DNA of 64,000 nt from the NCBI GenBank assembly GCA_947482115.1, contig CANKII010000003.1, positions 372,001 to 436,000 of the forward strand, read 5' to 3'. The DNA comes from Fibrobacterota bacterium (GTDB lineage: Bacteria; Fibrobacterota; Fibrobacteria; UBA11236). A program made the position numbers and the translations under genes. This document shows positions 464 through 13,379 of this stretch, in pieces (within the stretch, counting starts at the first letter, position 1; the number at the start of each line of letters is the position of its first letter). The notes below the pieces were generated by a model. That model had not been told where the DNA came from and did not search any database. It worked only from the letters and a program-made list of their open reading frames with translations.

Positions 464-1627
464 CTAAAATACCACCCGCTGGCTGTAAGTTTTGCCGTGC
501 GACTTCACCTGAATCACATACACCGCCGCACGTTTGAGATTCGAGAAGGAATATTCTTTCTCACCTTCTCCAATTTGCCGAATAAGTTTGTGTCCTGCCA
601 GATCGAACACTTCGACGACGTGCTTCTTCATTCCATAAACCGAAACTTGCAAAGCTCCATTCTGATTCCGTGAGTTCAACGATCCATTGTGCGATTCATT
701 CCCGACAGCCCGAATGGCAACCGAAGACTGTGTCAATCCCGCAGCCCAGCGAATGGATTGCCAAGCCCAAGTTCTTGTGAGCCCTGCCGCTCCGGTGTCG
801 ATGCCGTTCGGGGCGGCTCCCGAACCTGTTCCGGTGAAAGCGGCTGAATCGTGTCCCCGTGCATTGTAAATGAAACGTCCCCGTTGTCCTGTCGAATCAG
901 GTGGCAAAGTGTAAGCCCAAGCAATGGGATGATTTGGACCCATGACCCCTCCGGGGGGCACATCATAAGTGTTCTCGTCTATTGTCAGCAATACATCCAC
1001 TTGACTGCGGGGATTCCCGTGAAAAGACATCCATTCATCCGGCCAAGTCCAATGGGTCTTTGGAAAGCCAGCGAGGAGATCATTATATTCGGGCTTTTGC
1101 GAGCGAACCATTCCGTTGGTCGGCATGGTGTCTATTTGAACTTGGGCGTTCCGGCCTGCCACTGAACCCCATGCGGACCATGCGGTGAATTGGGTGAAGA
1201 AAACGCTATCTGTTAAAAATGGCCATAGATCCTTGTGATCCATCACTCCCATCCACGCCACAAGTCCGCCGCCATGTTTCAACCACCGCTGAAAAGCCGT
1301 CCGTTGCGCAATGCCCGGGATAACTCCGCCAATGGATGAGTTATTGTTGAAAACAATAACTTGATATTTGCTTAGGCTGTCGTCATTCATCATGGCTCCT
1401 GTTGCCATGATGCTCGCGGGCACTGTAAGAGTAAAACCCTTTTCCGAGGCAAAATCCCGTAAAATGGCCGTCAAGGCATTTACAGCATTTGTGCGGGTGA
1501 GTCCGCCAGTTCCGACTTGGTTTATGCAGAGAACTTTTAATGGAACGGCACTGGGCGACCCTAAGGCAAACGCAAAAAATGCAGCGTAGCAAAACAACCG
1601 GTTTATGTTTACGCGCCTGTCTTTCAT
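464..1627 (-). CDS. Secreted ThuA-domain protein with C-terminal sorting-like domain (paralogue 2)
   Basis: A 387-residue protein with a signal peptide (about residues 10-28), a ThuA-like domain (about 30-290) and a C-terminal beta domain (about 305-387). Visible ThuA features are KVLCINQ near the N terminus, the VIVFNNNSS strand, GGGLVAWMG, HPIAWAY and the GRFIYNARGHD strand that is typical of the family end. The last 75 residues contain VEVFDLAGHK and AAVYVIQVKS, which resembles type IX secretion sorting domains. The start codon overlaps the stop of the upstream paralogue by one base (TAATG), so translation is likely coupled. Enzymatic activity is not predicted from the sequence. Confidence 0.8.
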   Translation of the reverse strand: MKDRRVNINRLFCYAAFFAFALGSPSAVPLKVLCINQVGTGGLTRTNAVNALTAILRDFASEKGFTLTVPASIMATGAMMNDDSLSKYQVIVFNNNSSIGGVIPGIAQRTAFQRWLKHGGGLVAWMGVMDHKDLWPFLTDSVFFTQFTAWSAWGSVAGRNAQVQIDTMPTNGMVRSQKPEYNDLLAGFPKTHWTWPDEWMSFHGNPRSQVDVLLTIDENTYDVPPGGVMGPNHPIAWAYTLPPDSTGQRGRFIYNARGHDSAAFTGTGSGAAPNGIDTGAAGLTRTWAWQSIRWAAGLTQSSVAIRAVGNESHNGSLNSRNQNGALQVSVYGMKKHVVEVFDLAGHKLIRQIGEGEKEYSFSNLKRAAVYVIQVKSHGKTYSQRVVF

Positions 1628-2817
1628 TAAAACACCACCCGACTTACATACGTCTTTTCATCTGCTCTGACCCGAACCATGTAAATGGCATTGCGTTTCA
1701 ATTCCGGAAAAGAATATTCCCTGTCTCCCGTACCGGACTGGTGTCCCAGATTGTGACCGGAAAGATCGAACACTTCAACATCCGCTTTTCCCGCAACGTA
1801 AGTGATGGATATCTGCAGGATCCCATTCAGACTATGGGCGTTTAAAACTCCGTTGTCTTTCGCAATCACGGAATGGATGGAAGCGCCAGGTTGGGTGAAT
1901 CCCGCCGCCCAGCGGATGGATTCCAGGACCCAATTTTTTGTCCCACAGGCGGCGCAGGAATCATACGGAGACGAATTGGATCCTTTTCCGGCGAACGAAC
2001 CGGAATCGTGTCCGCGACCGAAGAAAATGAAACGACCCTTCTTTCCTCCGGAATCCGGCGGAAAAGTATAAGCCCATGCGACAGGATGATCCGAACCCAT
2101 TTTCCCCGCTAGAGGAACGTCATACGTGTTCTCATCAATGGTGAGCAGAATGTCCACCACGCGTGGATAGCCTCCCCATACCGTGGACGGGCTGGCGAGC
2201 CGTGGGTTTATGCGGTAGGAATACCATTCATCCGGGTAAGTGAACTGGCCTTTTGGAAAACCGGCTTTCAACGCCGCGTACTCCGGTTTTTCAGAACGCG
2301 GAGTGGATTCCCCGTTGGTCAATAACGTATCCCACTGAACTTTGGCGGCTCTTCCCCCCGTTGAATTCCAGGTCGAATGATCTGTGTATTTGGTTCCCGA
2401 GAAAACACTGTCCGTCATGAACGGCCACAAGTCGGCATGATCCATCACCGCGTTCCATCCCACCGCTGCACCGCCATGCCGGAGCCATTTTTGAAAGGCG
2501 AGTCTTTGATTGGCATCGACGATCACGTTGCCAATGGATGTGTTTTGATTGAAGACAATGACCTGATAAGTGCCCAGGCTGTCGTCCTGAAATCTGGATT
2601 GGGTGAGTGCTGCAGTGGCGGGGGCCACCGTTTCCCAGCCTTGTTCCGGCCCCACAACCGTTGTCAAATACTTCGACAACCAGTTTACGGGACCCGAACT
2701 GAGGATTGCCCCGGATTGATTGATGATCAGGACTTTAAATGGGGCCGCATGAGCGGCTCCCAATGCAGACACAAAAAGTCCGGCACACAGAAACAACCCT
2801 TTGTTATTGAAACACAT
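1627..2817 (-). CDS. Secreted ThuA-domain protein with C-terminal sorting-like domain (paralogue 3)
   Basis: A 396-residue protein when started at the ATG at 2817. The frame is open to 2883, but that would overlap the upstream gene, and the signal peptide starts naturally at MCFNNKG. It has the same layout as its neighbours: signal peptide, ThuA-like domain with VIVFNQNTS, DHADLWPFMTDSVF and GRFIFFGRGHD, and a C-terminal domain with VEVFDLSGH and AIYMVRVRADEKTY. It is very close to paralogue 4 in protein and DNA, for example in the shared block with NQRLAFQKWLRHGG, so these two arose by recent tandem duplication. A pair of cysteines (DSCAACG) near residue 305 is absent from the other copies. 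Confidence 0.8.
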   Translation of the reverse strand: MCFNNKGLFLCAGLFVSALGAAHAAPFKVLIINQSGAILSSGPVNWLSKYLTTVVGPEQGWETVAPATAALTQSRFQDDSLGTYQVIVFNQNTSIGNVIVDANQRLAFQKWLRHGGAAVGWNAVMDHADLWPFMTDSVFSGTKYTDHSTWNSTGGRAAKVQWDTLLTNGESTPRSEKPEYAALKAGFPKGQFTYPDEWYSYRINPRLASPSTVWGGYPRVVDILLTIDENTYDVPLAGKMGSDHPVAWAYTFPPDSGGKKGRFIFFGRGHDSGSFAGKGSNSSPYDSCAACGTKNWVLESIRWAAGFTQPGASIHSVIAKDNGVLNAHSLNGILQISITYVAGKADVEVFDLSGHNLGHQSGTGDREYSFPELKRNAIYMVRVRADEKTYVSRVVF

Positions 2818-2828
2818 CGCCCGATCTT

Positions 2829-4022
2829 TTACAACACAATCCGACTCGAATAGGTTTGACCGCCTGAACGGACTCGAACCCAATAGATTCCGGATCGTTT
2901 GAGGTTGGAGAAAGAATACTCCCTGTTTCCCTCCCCCGATTGTCGGGCCACTCTTTGCCCGGAGAGAGTGAATAACTCAAGAACATGACTCCCCGGGTTT
3001 ATGAATGCGATTTTCAGGATTCCATTCTCCACTCGCGTACTCAAGAACCCCTCATTGGAAAATTTTCCCTCCGCTTGAATGACCGTGGTGGATTGAGTCA
3101 ACCCTGCTGCCCAGCGGATGGATTGCAGAATCCAGTTTTTTGTCGGTCCTGTTGACGGTGTATCGATTCCACCGGGAGCCGCACCCGCACTCTTTCCATC
3201 AAAGGCGCCCACATCATGTCCGCGACCAAAGAAAATGAAACGGCCTTTCTTTCCTCCAATATCAGGAGGAAGAGTGTAAGCCCAGGCGACAGGATGATCG
3301 ACGCCCATTCTCACCGCGGTGGGAACATCATAAGTGCTCTCATCAATGGTGAGCAGCACATCCACGGCGCGGGGATAACCACCCCACACGTTGGATGCTG
3401 TGGCGAGCCGGGGATTTGTGCGGTAGGAATACCATGCATCCGGAAGAATGACAGGTCCCGCCTGAAAAGGGATTTTCAATGCTGCATATTCTGGCTTATT
3501 GGCACGCACCGTGGCCTCACCATTGGTGTGGATGGTGTCCCACTGCACTTTGGCTGTTTTTCCAGCGGTTGAATTCCAAGGGGAACGATCCGTGAATTTG
3601 GTGCTTGAGAATACGCTATCCGTCATGAACGGCCATAAATCAGCGTGATCCAGCAACCCATTCCACCCTACCGCTCCTCCGCCATGCCGGAGCCATTTTT
3701 GAAAAGCCAGTCTTTGATTGGCATCGGTGATCACATTGCCAATGGACGTGTTTTGGTTAAAGACGATAACCTGATAGGTGCTCAGGCTGTCATCCCGGAA
3801 TCTCGATTGGGTTAAAGCTGTTGTGCTGGGCGCAACCATTTCCCAACCTTGCTCGGGACCCACGACGGTCAAGAGGTAGTTGGACAACCAGTTTATAGGT
3901 GCAGTGCGGAGGAATGCCCCGCTTTGATTGATGATCAGAACTTTCAAGGGAACGGCATTTGCAGTCCCCAGTATGAATATTAGAAAGCCAAAACACAGAA
4001 GCTTCTTATTCCGTAACATCAC
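2829..4022 (-). CDS. Secreted ThuA-domain protein with C-terminal sorting-like domain (paralogue 4, first of array)
   Basis: A 397-residue protein and the promoter-proximal member of the array. The start at 4022 has a strong GGGAGG site five bases upstream. The signal peptide covers residues 1-23 (ends GTANA). The ThuA-like domain has KVLIINQSGA, GGGAVGWNG, DHADLWPFMTDSVF, HPVAWAY and GRFIFFGRGHD. The C-terminal domain has LELFTLSGQ and SGIYWVRVRSGG, the type expected of a sorting or surface-attachment domain. It is the likely ancestor or sister copy of paralogue 3. Function beyond the fold is unknown. Confidence 0.8.
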   Translation of the reverse strand: MMLRNKKLLCFGFLIFILGTANAVPLKVLIINQSGAFLRTAPINWLSNYLLTVVGPEQGWEMVAPSTTALTQSRFRDDSLSTYQVIVFNQNTSIGNVITDANQRLAFQKWLRHGGGAVGWNGLLDHADLWPFMTDSVFSSTKFTDRSPWNSTAGKTAKVQWDTIHTNGEATVRANKPEYAALKIPFQAGPVILPDAWYSYRTNPRLATASNVWGGYPRAVDVLLTIDESTYDVPTAVRMGVDHPVAWAYTLPPDIGGKKGRFIFFGRGHDVGAFDGKSAGAAPGGIDTPSTGPTKNWILQSIRWAAGLTQSTTVIQAEGKFSNEGFLSTRVENGILKIAFINPGSHVLELFTLSGQRVARQSGEGNREYSFSNLKRSGIYWVRVRSGGQTYSSRIVL

Positions 4023-4172: not shown

Positions 4173-6605
4173 TTAAACCGGCAGTCGCAGCGTAAATTCC
4201 GCGCCTTTCCCCGTTTCGCTGCGAGCCTCCAAGGTTCCACCGTGGGCGCGGATGATGTCATAACTGATATGCAATCCGAGACCCAAACCCTGTCCCACAG
4301 GTTTGGTCGTGAAAAAGGGTTCAAAAAGATGTTTCAGATTTTCAGATGAAATGCCCGGACCCGAATCGGAAATGCTGGCGCAGATAAAACCGTTTTCCCG
4401 CCAAGTGCGGAGTTGCAATTTACCCTGTTCTCCCATCGCCTGTCCGGCATTGACGAGGATATTCAGAAACACCTGTTGGATTTGCGCAGCATCGCATGTC
4501 AGGCTCAAAGCCTCCGCATACACCTTTTCGATCCCGATGTTTTTGCTGAAGGTGGTTTGCGCCAGCATCAGGCTTTTATCCAGCAACGCGTTCAAGTCAC
4601 TCACGGACTTTTCCAGCACTGCATTTTTTGGGTTCATTCCGGCACGGGAAATTCCACGCAAATTCTGCACGATGTCCCGCACACGTTTGGAACCTTCCTG
4701 ACTTTCTTCCAAGGCCGCGCGTGCTTTGCGAAGCAAAGCTTCGCGCTCTTCCAGCGCAATCGTTTCCGAGGCGAGAGCGCCAAGATAGCCGTGGATTTGA
4801 TGGAGATTGGCGTAGATGAAGCCTATGGGATTGTTGAGTTCATGCGCAATCCCCGCAACGAGCTGCCCCAGCGCCGCCAGCTTTTCCCCCTGAACAAGTT
4901 GCTGTTGCGCGCGCTTTACTTCCTCAATCAACCGTTCGAGTTCACGGTTCTTGACTTCCAATTCCACGAGGTACTTTCGGCGCGCGATGGTTTGCGCCAT
5001 GCGACGAAGCAGCCAGCGGAGGATGAAAACAAAGACTGCGAAAATCAGAAAGGCGATTAACAGGGAGCGAACGCGCGCCGGATCGTGTTCCAGCAGGCGA
5101 AACTCATAAATCCCCCGAGTGTAAACCCCCGCCACAAATCCGCCTTCCCACACTTCGAGATCCATGTACCCCGGCTTCACTCTCCTTGTGACTACGCGTC
5201 CGTTTGGAAAGGCTACACGGACGCGCAACTCCGCGCTTCCTGCAGGCAGGGCGAACAAAACCGGACCGGAATAACTGCTGAAATAACCCTCTCCCCCGTG
5301 CACTTCCCGCTGCGAAAGCATCCGCCACGAAGATCCTTCGGCCCGCCAAAGGGACACATTAGCCCCGACGGCTTTGCGGTTGGAGAACAACCCTTTCGGA
5401 AAAACCCTGAGATAGGAAGAACGGGATCCGCCGCCTTCAAACAAAACACAGGCGCTGTCGCGCGATGCGATCAACAATTCCAAGCCCGGTGACGGCGTTA
5501 AATCAGCAACCATCCCGGCGGTACTGTAATCCGCACGGGTATCGGCAATTCCCCCCTGTGGCAATGGGCGTTCTTCAAAACCTTTTCCGGTATTTTCGAA
5601 ATAATGATTTGCTCCGCGCGCGGTGAGAAACAAATCGACATCCCCGTCGCCATCGAGATCCGCCAGCGTTGCGCCATAGGCATCCATGGAATCGGGAAGC
5701 CCCCAAAGTCTGCCGACGTCCTCGAACTTTGGAAAGGGCTTCGCAGGTTTCCACTCCTTGGGCGAAGCCGCTGTGATGATGGGATTGGACAGGTTTTCAA
5801 ACAGGTAATTGCGATCACCGCGACAAGCGAAGAACAGATCCATGTCTCCGTCATTGTCCAAATCCGCGGACACTGCCGTGTTGCATTGCGTACCGACGAG
5901 AGGCATCACCGGCAAAGCGACGGAACGAAAATGAAACGGGGAGTTCTGTTCGTACAATCGGATGGGATGTTTCCAGCCCGCCACGGCCAAATCCAAATTA
6001 CCGTCACCGTTGAGATCGGTGAAGAAGGCGGTTTGTGATCCGCTGTCCGTTTCCAATCCGGCATCCTCGAGGGACACGGGAAGAAATCGAATGCCGTGAT
6101 CGTTGCGGTACAAACGCATGGGACCGTGTTCGTTGGTGATCAACAAATCGAGATACCCGTCGCGATCCAAATCGGCGAAAGCCCCCGTATTGGCATCGGC
6201 ATTGCGCAGAATACCGGTCTGCTTGGTGACATCCACAAAGGTTCCATCGCTCCGGTTGTGCAACAACTCCAGCGCATCGCCCCATCCGGAAATCAGCAAA
6301 TCGACGGCCCCGTCGTTGTCATAATCCGCCGCCGTGGCTCCAAGTTCGAGATTACGAATGCCCTGTGGCATCAGATTCCCGCCTGTTCCTGAGGCGATGG
6401 ATCGGTCGCGGAAAGTTCCGTCGCCCTGATTGATCAACATCCGGTTCAAGGTGCGGAAACCCACGATGTAAATGTCCGGAAGCCCGTCACCGTCAAAGTC
6501 GGCGATCGCCACACCATAGGCATCGCGGACGTCCGGCAAAGATTGCGCAGAAGCCGTTGACATCAGCGCGCAGAGAAAAAGGAGGTTGAGGAACAGCTTG
6601 AACAT
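4173..6605 (-). CDS. Hybrid FG-GAP/ASPIC-UnbV sensor histidine kinase
   Basis: An 810-residue membrane sensor kinase. Residues 1-20 are a signal peptide. About 25-390 hold six FG-GAP/VCBS-type repeats with calcium-loop motifs (DFDGDGLPD, DYDNDGAVD, DLDRDGYLD, DLNGDGNLD, DLDNDGDMD, DLDGDGDVD) and a degenerate seventh, consistent with a seven-bladed propeller. About 395-490 match an ASPIC/UnbV domain (SNRKAVGANV, GEGYFSSYSGP, VAFPNGRVV). One membrane segment at about 508-530 is followed by a coiled coil, the H-box AGIAHELNNPIG (His near 587), an N-box NILVNAGQAM, and G-boxes SDSGPGIS and GQGLGLGLHIS. No receiver domain and no response regulator are adjacent. It is last in a six-gene operon, 10 bases after the lipoprotein. 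The stimulus is unknown; a calcium-dependent extracellular ligand or partner protein is an inference. Confidence 0.9.
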   Translation of the reverse strand: MFKLFLNLLFLCALMSTASAQSLPDVRDAYGVAIADFDGDGLPDIYIVGFRTLNRMLINQGDGTFRDRSIASGTGGNLMPQGIRNLELGATAADYDNDGAVDLLISGWGDALELLHNRSDGTFVDVTKQTGILRNADANTGAFADLDRDGYLDLLITNEHGPMRLYRNDHGIRFLPVSLEDAGLETDSGSQTAFFTDLNGDGNLDLAVAGWKHPIRLYEQNSPFHFRSVALPVMPLVGTQCNTAVSADLDNDGDMDLFFACRGDRNYLFENLSNPIITAASPKEWKPAKPFPKFEDVGRLWGLPDSMDAYGATLADLDGDGDVDLFLTARGANHYFENTGKGFEERPLPQGGIADTRADYSTAGMVADLTPSPGLELLIASRDSACVLFEGGGSRSSYLRVFPKGLFSNRKAVGANVSLWRAEGSSWRMLSQREVHGGEGYFSSYSGPVLFALPAGSAELRVRVAFPNGRVVTRRVKPGYMDLEVWEGGFVAGVYTRGIYEFRLLEHDPARVRSLLIAFLIFAVFVFILRWLLRRMAQTIARRKYLVELEVKNRELERLIEEVKRAQQQLVQGEKLAALGQLVAGIAHELNNPIGFIYANLHQIHGYLGALASETIALEEREALLRKARAALEESQEGSKRVRDIVQNLRGISRAGMNPKNAVLEKSVSDLNALLDKSLMLAQTTFSKNIGIEKVYAEALSLTCDAAQIQQVFLNILVNAGQAMGEQGKLQLRTWRENGFICASISDSGPGISSENLKHLFEPFFTTKPVGQGLGLGLHISYDIIRAHGGTLEARSETGKGAEFTLRLPV

Positions 6606-6615
6606 ATCGAAAAAC

Positions 6616-7029
6616 TTAACCGTTTAAATTCAGGTATATCGGAGCGATAAAAAAGTCGAGATTTTTTGAATAATAAGGCTGTCCATTCCTTTTAATCTCA
6701 ATGCGTACACGGGGATTTGTTTCGGTGGAATAAATCGCCAATAAAACCTGATCGCGGACAAGAATCCTAAATGTGGTTTTGAAGGGAATACGGATGTGTT
6801 GCTTCAGTCTGTCAAGATTAGCTATCGCCGAGTAATCCGAAATATATCCGCTGGCAAACGCATGAGAGGACCAACGGATACCATCACACTCTCCCGTGAT
6901 TTCCACTGAAAAAACAGACTCAACAACCTCAATCTTTTTGCCGTCTTTATCAATTACGGTGCGCGTATATCCACACCCGAGGAGAAAAGGCGAGAGCAAA
7001 CACCCTGTCAAGACTAGGTGTCTCACCAT
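6616..7029 (-). CDS. Hypothetical lipoprotein
   Basis: A 137-residue protein. The frame is open further upstream, but the start at 7029 is chosen because it gives a clean lipoprotein signal (hydrophobic residues 4-17, lipobox LLGC, acylated Cys 19) and overlaps the stop of the barrel gene as ATGGTGA. The mature part is beta-rich (VESVFSVEITG, FRILVRDQVLLAIYST, RVRIEIKRNG) and I recognise no family. Its position between a FadL-like barrel and a sensor kinase suggests an envelope partner of one or both. Confidence 0.75.
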   Translation of the reverse strand: MVRHLVLTGCLLSPFLLGCGYTRTVIDKDGKKIEVVESVFSVEITGECDGIRWSSHAFASGYISDYSAIANLDRLKQHIRIPFKTTFRILVRDQVLLAIYSTETNPRVRIEIKRNGQPYYSKNLDFFIAPIYLNLNG

Positions 7030-8168
7030 CGAAACCTCAGCGATCCCGTGACCTGCTGCCCCGTTTCGGTAATGGTGAGATCCGCCGGGCCATTCGCCTG
7101 TGAAGGCTGCACATAACTCTTCTTGCTGTACTGATACCCCACATCCAATCCCAGATGTTTTGAAACCGGGAATCCCAATCCGAGATTCAGGCTTCTCGGC
7201 CGCTGAATCCATGCCGGCCCCATGAGGTTCGGAGACTCCGTTTGCCACGACAGACCGGCCCGTACGACAGGTCCTCGCCGCATCAGGTATTGCTCGATGC
7301 CGAAAGCGAAAATGTGCTGGTTGGAATAACCGGGTTCATTCTGGTAAAAATCGCTTCCGGTTTCCGCATAGGAATAGCTGTTCCAAAAAAGTCCGTGCCA
7401 GTCCAGTGATAATTGTGTCCATCCCATTTGATACGCCAAACCCAACCGCATTTGAAAAGGATTCTTAATGGAGTACTCCGTTTCAATCGGAGCTTTCCCC
7501 AGTTCCTGATAGGTGTCATGCAATTCCAGCCGCTCCGTCACCACGGCGGAACCACCCAAAGTCAGGGACTTCGAAACCTGAAGAAGAAAAGAAGGTTCGA
7601 GATTGAATCCTCCGTATTCCTCAAGATATCGCACCGTGGTTCCGTCCTGGATTTGCAATTGCTCCTGTCCGTTCAAAACGGTGAACGCAATCCCCACGCT
7701 GGCGATGGAGGAGGGCGCATAGGCAAAAGCCAGCCGGTAATGATCCATTCCCCCGAAGTCCTCGTAGTTGTAGGATTTTCCCCTCGCATAATATTGCAGG
7801 GGATCGTTGAACGAAGTCGGCGAGTAATAGCCCATGCCGAATGCCCAGCCTTCGCCCTGCGTCAACACTGCGGAAACATCATTGACCTGAATGTTTTCCA
7901 ATGTTCTGCGGCCTGCGACGCCTCCCGCAGGAGAAGCGTCGTTGGTGCGCAGGCTGTAATTGACGTTGAGTCCCAGCTCTGAACTTCGCAGTTGTGTCAT
8001 TCCGGCAGGGTTGTAATACAGGGCGGAGTAATCATCCGCGATGGCGGTGAAGGCACCGCCCATGGACATGGCACGGGTTCCGACTCCCATGGTCTCGCCG
8101 CGCGAAACCAGTTCAGCATTGGCCGCCGCGGCAATCAAGAGAAGCGATGGAATAAGTTTCGTTTTCAT
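7023..8168 (-). CDS. FadL/OmpP1-family outer-membrane barrel protein
   Basis: A 381-residue protein starting at 8168, preceded by AAAGGAGAAACAA, rather than at the in-frame ATG at 8189. The signal peptide ends at ANA. The mature N terminus carries the FadL family mark: GTRAMSMGGAF followed by AIADDYSALYYNPAGM. Alternating strands continue to an aromatic-ending C terminus (SLRFRW), typical of barrels assembled in the outer membrane. FadL proteins move hydrophobic compounds across the outer membrane. Here it sits within an operon of tail-sharing secreted proteins and a sensor kinase, so a more specific role is possible but not shown. Confidence 0.85.
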   Translation of the reverse strand: MKTKLIPSLLLIAAAANAELVSRGETMGVGTRAMSMGGAFTAIADDYSALYYNPAGMTQLRSSELGLNVNYSLRTNDASPAGGVAGRRTLENIQVNDVSAVLTQGEGWAFGMGYYSPTSFNDPLQYYARGKSYNYEDFGGMDHYRLAFAYAPSSIASVGIAFTVLNGQEQLQIQDGTTVRYLEEYGGFNLEPSFLLQVSKSLTLGGSAVVTERLELHDTYQELGKAPIETEYSIKNPFQMRLGLAYQMGWTQLSLDWHGLFWNSYSYAETGSDFYQNEPGYSNQHIFAFGIEQYLMRRGPVVRAGLSWQTESPNLMGPAWIQRPRSLNLGLGFPVSKHLGLDVGYQYSKKSYVQPSQANGPADLTITETGQQVTGSLRFRW

Positions 8169-8185: not shown

Positions 8186-8599
8186 TCAACGTTGAACACC
8201 GCGTTCGCGGGATGGCCGCGAAGATTCTTCGAACGTGCTGAATGAGGAAACAGATTCGTCATCATGTCCCCCGAATATTGCTCCAATTACCTCGAACACT
8301 CTGAACACGCCTCCAACGGCACAAAGGACACCGGCGACCGCACCGGATGGCTTTTCTTCGTGCAGGGATCCGAAGCGTGCCATGTTCTTCCGGAGACTTT
8401 CCGTCTCAATGGAATCCATGTTGGTGTCGATCGAACCGCGGACAAGGCAAGCATCGTCATTCAGACGGGTCGCATTCTGAATTCGCAAACGACAAGCCAC
8501 GCTGATGTCTGGCATCATTTTGATGTTAGTGGCACTGGATTGCGCATGCACTGCCATGGCAAAAAAAAGTACGCCCGGATAAATGACCAAGGTTTTCAT
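8186..8599 (-). CDS. Secreted protein with RPSRERGxQR C-terminal tail (copy 3 in operon)
   Basis: A 137-residue protein with a signal peptide (residues 1-19, ending VHAQ), a short Cys-containing middle and a Gly/Val-rich hydrophobic segment at about 84-110 that may insert in a membrane. It then has an acidic GGHDDES stretch and a Ser-rich linker, ending RPSRERGVQR-stop. The two genes upstream in the operon end in the same tail although their bodies differ. It lies 8 bases after the preceding gene and 17 bases before the FadL-like gene. I recognise no family; the tail is the only clear shared element. Confidence 0.75.
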   Translation of the reverse strand: MKTLVIYPGVLFFAMAVHAQSSATNIKMMPDISVACRLRIQNATRLNDDACLVRGSIDTNMDSIETESLRKNMARFGSLHEEKPSGAVAGVLCAVGGVFRVFEVIGAIFGGHDDESVSSFSTFEESSRPSRERGVQR

Positions 8600-8607
8600 C
8601 TCTGTAC

Positions 8608-9099
8608 TCAGCGCTGTGTACCGCGTTCACGTGACGGACGGGAGGAAGACTCCCCGGACGAAGAACTTCCAAACAGGCTTGAGTGATGCTCGGAACGATC
8701 TGCGGATGTTTGTCCTCCATCACAACTTTCATCATCGGAAGTATGAAAAATCGAGTCGAATATGCCGTTGACAAAAGATGTGAGCAGCGAGTCCCAAAAG
8801 CCCGGCTCGTCATCCTCGGGGGTGACGTAGGAAGCAATGGGTTCCGTCTCACGGAGAAAAGATTCCGCGGGTGTTGACGGGTTTTCCGGCAACGGCAGGT
8901 TGGTGGTTATCACGCCCGTGCTGTCCACGAAAACGGTGTCGTAAACGACTTTTGAAGAACCCATCTGGAGCGTGTCGCCCGAAAAATAAACCAAACCCGT
9001 GTCCGCCCCTTGAAGAGAGTCAGACACGCTGATCTCTTCCCGAAGAGTCTGCGCCTCTGCTGCAGCAATGCAAAGAAGCGCGGTCAGAAGAAGTTTCAT
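8608..9099 (-). CDS. Secreted protein with RPSRERGxQR C-terminal tail (copy 2 in operon)
   Basis: A 163-residue protein with a signal peptide of 16 residues (ends AEA). The mature chain is acidic and Ser/Thr-rich, with strand-like segments (TGLVYFSGDTLQMG, KVVYDTVFVDS) and one Trp/Phe-rich helix (GFWDSLLTSFVNGIFDSIF). The end is a Ser-rich linker containing SLFG and then RPSRERGTQR-stop. The SDDES stretch before the linker resembles HDDES in the next gene. Its ATG overlaps the stop of the upstream gene (ATGA), implying translational coupling. The family is unknown. Confidence 0.75.
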   Translation of the reverse strand: MKLLLTALLCIAAAEAQTLREEISVSDSLQGADTGLVYFSGDTLQMGSSKVVYDTVFVDSTGVITTNLPLPENPSTPAESFLRETEPIASYVTPEDDEPGFWDSLLTSFVNGIFDSIFHTSDDESCDGGQTSADRSEHHSSLFGSSSSGESSSRPSRERGTQR

Positions 9100-9722
9100 C
9101 GTTGCGCTCCGCGTTCACGCGATGGCCGGGCGGAAGGGGTGTTGAACAGGTTGTGCGGATGCTGTTCCGACGGACGCTGCTCGTGACGCACCTCAGGCCG
9201 GGCGGAGTGGGAATCCCGGTCACCGTGAAACGCGGCTTCTTCATGTCGATGATGAGAAACCTCCGCATGGCGTCCGAAACGGTGATGTTCATGGATAATC
9301 CGGATTTCGCGTTCTTCACGGGGGCGAACAATGACCACCCGGGAGTAGGCAGGCCTTTCATAAACCACTTCGCGCACCACATGGTCACAGGGCCCGGGCT
9401 CCACAACCTTGCGAACCACGACTTCCTTTTCGCGGGAGCAGGATTCGTCCTCCCGATTCACCACGATTTGCCTTTGCCCGTCGTCCCGGTCGCAATTTTC
9501 ATCATCCTCATGCCCGGAGCGGTAAATGGTTCTCTCAACCGTCACCTGACCGTGGGGAAATCCAACCGTGACCTCGGCCTTTACCTTGGTTACCCCACCC
9601 GCCCATGTCGAATGAGCCGCTGCGAAAAGAGCTGCGATACTCAGGCCGGTTAAGAAGGTGTTTCCGATGCGTTTCCGGGGTACAGATCCGGGATCGGATT
9701 GGGGTTTGAATGGATAACTCAT
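9096..9722 (-). CDS. Secreted His/Arg/Glu-rich protein with RPSRERGxQR C-terminal tail (first gene of operon)
   Basis: A 208-residue protein started at 9722, where GGAGGA precedes the ATG by four bases; the longer open frame to 9857 has no such site. A basic N terminus and hydrophobic residues 23-38 form a signal sequence ending near TWAG. The mature part is highly charged: a first strand-rich region (VKAEVTVGFPHGQVTVERT), an acidic Cys-containing loop, VVVRKVV and VVREVVYERP segments, then a His-rich region (HEHHRFGRH, HHRHEE) that could bind metal. The last residues are ARPSRERGAQR. It is promoter-proximal in the operon that ends with the FG-GAP histidine kinase. Confidence 0.75.
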   Translation of the reverse strand: MSYPFKPQSDPGSVPRKRIGNTFLTGLSIAALFAAAHSTWAGGVTKVKAEVTVGFPHGQVTVERTIYRSGHEDDENCDRDDGQRQIVVNREDESCSREKEVVVRKVVEPGPCDHVVREVVYERPAYSRVVIVRPREEREIRIIHEHHRFGRHAEVSHHRHEEAAFHGDRDSHSARPEVRHEQRPSEQHPHNLFNTPSARPSRERGAQR

Positions 9723-9967
9723 ACTATCCTCCTGGTTTCCGGGAAATATTCCCGTAAGGAGACTAGAACAAGTTCCGGGCCAACTTTTTGAGTTGAAAAT
9801 TTGGCGAAATATTGGGTTGGAGTTGTCAAAACCTGTCCACTCTCTGGACGACTGCACACGTTCAGGACAGATTGGCGTTCTAAATCATTGTGAATTCTGA
9901 ACGTTCAACGTTTCAAATTTTCTAAATTCGGTGCTTCCCGCAAGCGTGGTTCTTAGAAAAGGGACTA
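9723..9967. promoter_or_regulatory. Divergent promoter region between the tail-protein operon and nuo
   Basis: 245 bases without a gene separate the starts of two outward-facing operons, so promoters for both should lie here. I could not identify convincing -35/-10 pairs or an operator. The only short repeats are AACGTTCAACGTT-like sequences at about 9899-9912. Confidence 0.4.
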
Positions 9968-11418: not shown

Positions 11419-12630
11419 ATGTATTCCTACGAGAACGAAGTCGTTGAACAAACCGAAAACACGGTACACTTGAATGTGGGGCCTTCGCATCCCGCGATGC
11501 ACGGAACTTTGCGCGTCAAGATGGAAGTGCGCGGTGAACGCGTCATCAAGGCCGAACAGGAAATCGGTTATCTGCATACGGGTTTCGAAAAACTCGGCGA
11601 ATATCGCAGCTACAACCAGTTCATCACGCTTACGGATCGACTCAATTATTTCTCGCCGTTGAACAACAACATCGGCTTCGCCGTTGCCGTGGAAGAATTG
11701 CTCGGCCTTGTGCCGCCGCGCCGTTGTCAGGTGATTCGCACTTTACTCGCGGAACTTTCGCGTCTCGCGGATCATTCCCTGTGCGTGGGCGCTTTGGCCA
11801 TGGACTTGGGAGCGTTCACTTCCATCCTGTGGACTTTTGTCGAACGCGAAAAACTCTATGACGTGTTTGAGGCTGTGACCGGAACGCGATTGACCACGAG
11901 CTATACTCGCGTCGGAGGAATCGCTTTCGATTTACCCGAAGGTTTCGAGTCGCGTGTCATCGCCATTCTCGACAGCATGGAAAGCACGGTGGAAAAGTTG
12001 CGCGGCAGCTTTTACAAGAACCGTATTTTCCTCGACCGCACCGAGGGAACGGGTATTATCACCAAGGAAGATATCGAGTCTTTTGGTATCACGGGCCCGA
12101 TGGCACGTGCCTCGGGCGTGGCCTATGACCTTCGCAAATACCGGCCTTATTTGATTTATGATGAGTTGGAATTCAAAGTGCCGACGTACACCGAAGGCGA
12201 CAGTCTGGCGCGTTACAAAGTGCGTCTGGATGAAATGGACGAGAGCATCAAGATCATTCGACAGGCTTTGAAATTACTGGAGCCGGGGCCCATCAATGCG
12301 CTGGATCAAAAACACGCACTGCCGGACAAGCTGTCCACTTATCGCGACATGGAGTCAATGATCCATCATTTCAAAATGATCATGCCGGGTTCGGAACACG
12401 GATTGCATACGCCGGTGACCGATTTGTATTCCTCCACGGAAGCGCCGAACGGCGAACTAGGCTTTCACATTGTCTCTGATGGGACTTCGAATCCATGGCG
12501 CATCCGAATTCGCGGTTGCTCCATGCTCAACTATCCCATTTTTGGAAGGTTGATGGAAGGCTCCATGCTTTCCGATCTCGTCGCCATTCTGGCATCGTTC
12601 AATATTATCGCCGGAGAATTAGACCGGTGA
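11419..12630 (+). CDS. nuoD: NADH-quinone oxidoreductase subunit D
   Basis: A 403-residue 49 kDa-type subunit forming the quinone site with NuoB. The quinone-loop motif NVGPSHPAMHG is at residues 15-25; EIGYLHTGFEK and the C-terminal LVAILASFNIIAGELDR are also typical. The ATG at 11419, one base after the nuoC stop, is chosen over the upstream in-frame start at 11386, which would overlap nuoC. The stop TGA overlaps the GTG start of nuoE and is also the edge of a palindromic repeat. Confidence 0.97.
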   Translation: MYSYENEVVEQTENTVHLNVGPSHPAMHGTLRVKMEVRGERVIKAEQEIGYLHTGFEKLGEYRSYNQFITLTDRLNYFSPLNNNIGFAVAVEELLGLVPPRRCQVIRTLLAELSRLADHSLCVGALAMDLGAFTSILWTFVEREKLYDVFEAVTGTRLTTSYTRVGGIAFDLPEGFESRVIAILDSMESTVEKLRGSFYKNRIFLDRTEGTGIITKEDIESFGITGPMARASGVAYDLRKYRPYLIYDELEFKVPTYTEGDSLARYKVRLDEMDESIKIIRQALKLLEPGPINALDQKHALPDKLSTYRDMESMIHHFKMIMPGSEHGLHTPVTDLYSSTEAPNGELGFHIVSDGTSNPWRIRIRGCSMLNYPIFGRLMEGSMLSDLVAILASFNIIAGELDR

Positions 12631-13379
12631 CCCTTCGACAAGCTCAGGGTCCGGCAAGGACCTTATCGACTGAATATCTGCAGCGCTTCCACGACATGGT
12701 GGACGACTATCCCAACAAGCGTTCCATGTTGATGATGACGCTTCGACTCATTGAAGAAGAGTTCGGTTGCATCGACGATGCAGGCATGGAAATCGCCGCC
12801 GATCTCTGTGGCGTTTCCACGGCGCATGTGCAAGGCATGGTGACTTTTTACACCCACTTCAAACGCCCCGCGCATGGCAAACACCGTTTCATGGTATGTG
12901 CCACGCTGATGTGCGCGCTGGATGGAAACACTTCGCAGGCCCTGAAGCAAATCGAGTCCAAACTGGGAATCACACCGGGACAAAGCACGGCGGACGGATT
13001 GTTCTCTTGCGAAAAAGTCGAATGTCTCGCCGATTGCGACAAGCCGCCGGTGGTGCAAAAAGACTTCGAGCATTTTTGCTCCATGAAGGGCAAAACGCTG
13101 GACGATTATATCGACTCGCTGCTCAAGCGCGAAAACAAAAGCGTTGCGGATTATCAGGGCAAGGCCGGAATCGAAATGGATTTGCGCGTGTCCGTGCTGC
13201 CGTCGCATTACAACTTCGCAGGCGAAACCGAAGTGGGTGCGCGGCACTTTGAAAACAAGGACCCGTACTTTCAGCCCGGCGAAGCGCCGCGAACGACGAC
13301 GGTTCCGCCGCCGCTGAAAACACCTCTCACCGCACCGGTTGTGGATGGAATGAATTTGAACGGAGCGGATCATGTCTGA
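12627..13379 (+). CDS. nuoE: NADH-quinone oxidoreductase subunit E with repeat-derived N terminus
   Basis: A 24 kDa-type subunit carrying a [2Fe-2S] cluster. Ligands are visible as CATLMC (about residues 92-97) and CLADC (about 133-137); FGCIDD and GVSTAHVQGMVTFY are family segments. The best start is GTG at 12627, overlapping the nuoD stop as GTGA. The first codons after it (TLRQAQGP) are encoded by a palindromic repeat at 12629-12651, so the N terminus is partly repeat-derived. At 250 residues it is longer than usual, with about 80 extra residues after the ferredoxin-like domain, Pro/Thr-rich near the end, of no family I recognise. Confidence 0.93.
   Translation: MTLRQAQGPARTLSTEYLQRFHDMVDDYPNKRSMLMMTLRLIEEEFGCIDDAGMEIAADLCGVSTAHVQGMVTFYTHFKRPAHGKHRFMVCATLMCALDGNTSQALKQIESKLGITPGQSTADGLFSCEKVECLADCDKPPVVQKDFEHFCSMKGKTLDDYIDSLLKRENKSVADYQGKAGIEMDLRVSVLPSHYNFAGETEVGARHFENKDPYFQPGEAPRTTTVPPPLKTPLTAPVVDGMNLNGADHV
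12629..12651 (+). repeat. Palindromic repeat, copy 1 (inside nuoE start)
   Basis: Stem GACCCT/AGGGTC around the conserved centre TCGACAAGCTC. It spans the nuoD stop and the first codons of nuoE. Confidence 0.85.

Follow-up and report, generated by a model that had tools for sequence, protein, structure and literature searches.

What does it mean when three neighbouring genes, each coding for an exported protein with a body of its own, end in the same ten-residue peptide? The genes, here named P1, P2 and P3, lie side by side in a Fibrobacterota genome, within the 64-kb stretch of DNA that we analysed and refer to as the window (Table 1). A sequence-only reading had taken their shared end for a sorting, docking or processing tag. 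The observation itself proved exact, as a scan of the window for R-P-x-R-E-R-G-x-Q-R followed by a stop returned three minus-strand sites, 8186-8218, 8608-8640 and 9096-9128, each a match without mismatches. All three tails, RPSRERG[V/T/A]QR, are in frame at the ends of their ORFs and run directly into the stop codon TGA, and each ORF starts with a signal-peptide-like hydrophobic segment. No further copy of the tail was found in the window even at three mismatches (0.14 expected; 0 of 100 shuffles reach 3).

Table 1 Features of the tail locus and its neighbourhood (positions within the window, except for P3b, which is given for four relatives).
Feature	Position	Strand	Description
ThuA-like exported proteins	464-4022 (464-1627, 1627-2883, 2829-4022)	-	three consecutive paralogues
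FG-GAP/histidine kinase	4173..6605	-	Pfam FG-GAP_3 3e-44, HATPase_c 8e-23; alternative candidate partner
Small putative lipoprotein	6616..7029	-	LLGC lipobox-like; overlaps FadL gene end
FadL-type outer-membrane barrel	7023..8168	-	Pfam Toluene_X 1e-12; orthologues 47-54% identical; candidate partner
P1	8186-8599	-	orphan exported protein, 137 aa; hydrophobic stretch at residues 91-109
P1 tail RPSRERGVQR	8189..8218	-	pattern match
P2	8608-9099	-	orphan exported protein, 163 aa; acidic and Ser-rich C-terminal region precedes tail
P2 tail RPSRERGTQR	8611..8640	-	pattern match
P3	9096-9722	-	exported protein, 208 aa; orthologues in 6/6 sister-genus genomes
P3 tail RPSRERGAQR	9099..9128	-	pattern match; core kept in six orthologues
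P3b, relative L076	~12170-12836		P3 paralogue
P3b, relative L077	~12300-12966		P3 paralogue
P3b, relative L078	13979-14506		P3 paralogue
P3b, relative L079	~11660-12319		P3 paralogue

The genes are tightly packed: the P3 stop overlaps the P2 ATG, the gap between P2 and P1 is 8 bases, and that between P1 and the FadL-type gene is 17. Codon bias favours the assigned frames of P1, P2 and P3 over their other two forward frames, with one antisense frame of P1 and of P3 scoring about equal or higher. The most likely start of P3 is the ATG at 9722 behind an AGGAGG, rather than the upstream GTG at 9857. As had been described, the tail is basic (charge +3) and has no hydrophobic anchor of its own; the best 19-residue hydropathy within the last 40 residues is 0.43 in P1, -0.92 in P2 and -1.46 in P3, and the hydrophobic stretch of P1 (mean KD 2.06) stands further upstream. 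The Ser-rich linker said to be usual before the tail is evident in P2, where serine makes up 35% of the 40 preceding residues, and is not clear in P1 (15%) or P3 (10%). The claim that the bodies are unrelated holds within the power of the comparison, which gave shuffle p values of ~0.07 (P1/P2), ~0.11 (P2/P3) and ~0.27 (P1/P3) once tail and signal were left out. The statement that the tail matches no nameable C-terminal tag also stands, as none of P1-P3 has a C-terminal domain match in Pfam or NCBIfam; searches of the three proteins against Pfam, NCBIfam and PHROGs, and of P2 and P3 against PDB sequences, returned nothing credible.

The tail codons indicate what has been conserved. Among the nine invariant codons, P1 and P3 differ in four, and P1/P2 and P2/P3 in six each, all synonymously; the claim that most codons had changed is correct for the latter two pairs (6/9) but not for P1/P3 (4/9). 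By parsimony, the fixed codons have undergone nine changes, 9/9 of them synonymous where 30% would be expected by chance (P = 1.8e-5; the test comprises nine codons and excludes the variable eighth), which argues that selection acts on the tail peptide and not on the DNA, as the sequence-only reading had proposed. The converse, that the shared stretch is a nucleic-acid element (a translation coupling signal, an RNA structure or a DNA repeat) and the peptide incidental, would suit the location of 3/3 copies at tight gene junctions, and the P3 tail codons GGA GCG do give P2 a Shine-Dalgarno-like GGAG. Against this, besides the silence of every change in the fixed codons, folding of the 3' ends is no stronger than that of shuffled sequence, the likely ribosome-binding sites of the FadL gene and of P1 are located after the tail and outside it, and orthologues of P3 use other codons for the peptide and have it about 60-190 bp ahead of FadL. 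We therefore regard a nucleic-acid element as extremely improbable. Promoter and terminator scans gave scores at shuffle level.

A general sorting or processing tag finds no support in the distribution of the tail. The sequence-only reading had proposed a census of tail carriers, together with an HMM of the last residues, and had named the absence of other carriers in the genome as the outcome that would speak against it. In the genome (2.72 Mb, 99% complete), searched by pattern and by HMM, the exact tail with its stop occurs three times, always at the P1-P3 locus, and there is no fourth carrier; allowing two mismatches adds one unrelated match, which ends in TGG rather than a stop. A search of 168 phylum genomes returned no exact tail with a stop outside this locus; one Fibrobacter sequence, present in three genomes, matches but ends in TGG. 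The tail HMM (21 residues) was built with P1, P2 and the P3 orthologues, so that their recovery is by construction; its strong matches were a single copy per genome in the six sampled from the sister genus and three copies in the genome itself, with the next matches at E >= 0.013. Sub-threshold matches looked spurious in an inspection by eye that covered part of them, where the locus was readable. As far as these sequence searches reach, the tail is a motif private to one predicted outer-membrane operon in one family of Fibrobacterota, and not a genome-wide tag.

Orthologues of P3 are present in all six sampled species of the sister genus and in no other of the 168 genomes except for one marginal match (E 0.005), and a search for P3 in plasmids gave no match. 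One orthologue weakly matches CglF (17 bits versus 90), a match that we discounted. P3 lies directly upstream of the orthologous FadL gene in 7/7 genomes, and both are absent together from the four other genomes of the order. Three genomes of the same genus lack P3 and its FadL gene; in two (G008, G009) the region upstream of nuoA holds other genes, and in the third (G007) the contig ends there. The orthologue bodies are 27-36% identical to the window P3, and the C-terminus is kept across the seven P3 genes as L-F-x5-R-P-x-R-x-R-G (core LFP.D.GRP.R.RGV), with 7 of the last 17 residues invariant versus 19 of the 191 others (Fisher p 0.002). The orthologues end in RPMRARGVGQHMVQIGAHR, RPMRTRGVQQHLVQVGSHR, RPVRTRGVQQHLVSR, RPVRMRGVSHSMVQVGARPH, RPARARGVQHFAQR and RPSRQRGVQR. 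Two to ten residues trail their RGV core, and an exact C-terminal position is therefore not required. These alignments suggest that the tail is a conserved C-terminal motif of P3, and that P3 is its likely source.

P1 and P2 have been seen in just one genome and have no credible homologues in 11 genomes of the order; at the sister-genus loci read, no gene separates P3 from FadL. The DNA alignment between P2 and P3 is confined to the last 41 bases, and the tails of P1 and P2 most likely came from a duplication of the P3 3' end. Tail positions 3 and 5 vary in the orthologues (M/V/A/S and A/T/M/Q), whereas all three window copies have Ser and Glu there, which favours descent over convergence. In the history that we propose, at least about 40 bp from the 3' end of P3 would have been duplicated onto P2 and P1, two young exported genes now located between P3 and FadL, and purifying selection would then have held the tail peptide while synonymous sites diverged. 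Alternatively, the whole of P3 may have been duplicated and the body similarity later lost; duplication of the 3' end is the simplest history.

The neighbouring barrel belongs to the FadL/OmpP1 family (PF03349, 47.8 bits versus a gathering threshold of 29.7), and its structural model, with a mean pLDDT of 68.7, finds matches in E. coli FadL (E 1e-14, TM about 0.66), in TodX and in BamG, a subunit of the BAM complexes of Bacteroidota. BamG and PorV were both rejected as identities for this barrel, with scores of 45 bits against the NF053685 cut-off of 250 for the former and under the cut-off for the latter. The best BamG-like gene of the genome, L149 (G000:C8:24703-25758), reaches 98 bits, also under the 250-bit cut-off; genomes of the same genus hold BamG-like genes of similar score, so L149 probably supplies the barrel for a BAM complex like that of Bacteroidota. 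The kinase gene encodes an unusual fusion of a signal peptide, FG-GAP repeats with a UnbV/ASPIC domain, one transmembrane segment and a histidine kinase, and genes 54-55% identical to it stand in the same neighbourhood of four relatives from the sister genus. In the relatives read, an OmpA-like gene comes first, then P3 and FadL, followed by additional small exported genes and the FG-GAP/histidine kinase. Between FadL and the kinase, four relatives carry P3b, which profile comparison identifies as a P3 paralogue (97%, E 3e-11, 57 columns); the window holds no P3b at the corresponding position. P3b ends in an invariant C-terminus of its own, DNRDGxQRNVYVRK, whose R..[RH]QR.V pattern is reminiscent of the P3 tail, most of all the orthologue end RPSRQRGVQR, and which may be another such tail.

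Like short linear motifs in general, the P1-P3 tail is short, conserved, probably disordered and carried by proteins whose bodies differ. Its conservation by selection on the protein is found both in the synonymous test and in the core kept by orthologues; it differs from such motifs in being confined to one locus. We propose, with a probability of roughly 0.5, that the tail serves as a short linear docking motif particular to this lineage, and that the three proteins share a partner in the envelope whose gene probably lies in the operon. The tail would form a flexible, basic and probably disordered C-terminal arm on P1, P2 and P3, by which three different exported proteins would bind one envelope partner. 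A flexible arm fits the AlphaFold model of P3, which is of low confidence (mean pLDDT 45, with just one low-confidence hairpin) and has no predicted secondary structure in the C-terminal part. The FadL barrel is the first candidate partner and the FG-GAP part (ectodomain) of the kinase the second; in this reading, P3, the FadL barrel, the lipoprotein and the FG-GAP sensor kinase form a family-specific gene cluster of the envelope. The docking role is inferred, and what links the two candidate partners to the tail is the co-localisation of the genes. The neighbour is a FadL-type barrel by Pfam and by its model, and Flavobacterium BamG, itself of the FadL family, gives a precedent for docking at such a barrel: it anchors an exported protein to the BAM complex (PMC12611786); the available text of that account reports no tail of the P1-P3 kind. 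A stronger version, which we consider rather unlikely, makes the tail an address peptide recognised by a single receptor from that operon (the FadL barrel or the FG-GAP kinase), a private targeting code by which new exported proteins would join an outer-membrane assembly on gaining the ten-residue tail of a neighbouring gene.

The conservation of the tail could also have a humbler origin. As an inherited remnant of a full or partial P3 duplication, it would need no common partner, and selection would be local to each tail, for example on solubility, stability or the avoidance of proteolysis at a flexible end. Such a remnant would agree with the strict confinement of the tail to three tandem genes in one operon and with the lack of homologues of P1 and P2. 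However, 9/9 positions are identical in the three copies although each pair differs by four to six synonymous changes, and distant P3 orthologues have kept this core as well, which argues for sequence-specific recognition over a general property such as charge; we consider a remnant possible but unlikely. A third possibility, that the cluster's FG-GAP histidine kinase reads the tail as a signal, with exported P1-P3 or peptides cut from them reporting the envelope state and altering its output, draws on the exported kinase downstream in the window, on its counterparts in the four relatives, and on the gene starting like a response regulator that follows the kinase in the two relatives read in detail. 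This argument is one of gene position, and no response regulator was seen directly adjoining the kinase in the window; a signalling role is highly improbable.

A dedicated sorting or processing tag of CTERM or sortase-like type, at which a protease or transpeptidase would cleave or anchor the protein at RPSRERGxQR, suits the position at the stop in 3/3 window proteins, their signal-peptide-like starts and the lack of homology between their bodies. CTERM-type signals have many dispersed carriers per genome, whereas the carriers here are three adjacent genes, with no copy elsewhere in the phylum (168 genomes), and the core of the motif is not always at the stop. According to the available text on GlyGly-CTERM/rhombosortase (PMC3237569) and MYXO-CTERM/myxosortase (PMC11980579), these signals likewise combine short C-terminal homology, differing exported bodies and a basic end, and are defined by three elements in order: a signature motif, a transmembrane helix and a basic cluster. 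In PEP-CTERM/exosortase (PMC1569441), too, exported proteins of differing body share a short stretch of homology at the very C-terminus and have a basic end. Unlike CTERM proteins, P1-P3 have no hydrophobic helix between signature and basic end, and none adjoins the motif in the last 40 residues (best hydropathy 0.43). The tail thus departs from a CTERM-type signal in two features, the adjoining helix and the dispersed carriers. The T9SS type A domain (TIGR04183, Por_Secre_tail) is a C-terminal export signal present in this genome, and all three ThuA-like proteins of the window match it above cut-off; it is a folded domain of ~70 residues, whereas the P1-P3 tail comprises ten residues and is basic, and P1-P3 match neither TIGR04183 nor PF18962. 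The sorting and processing parts of the original claim are thus not sustained, given three adjacent carriers and a core that may lie before the end, and a dedicated tag of this type is improbable; the docking part survives.

Overall, the observation of a shared tail is confirmed, its reading as a sorting tag is unsupported, and a docking motif of a lineage-specific operon is the best surviving reading, at about even odds. A general sorting tag would matter more, and the genome and phylum searches speak against it. If the docking reading is true, orphan exported proteins would have been recruited to an existing envelope assembly by copying a ten-residue tail alone, and the tail would point to a conserved, uncharacterised cluster of P3, FadL and FG-GAP kinase in a little-studied phylum.
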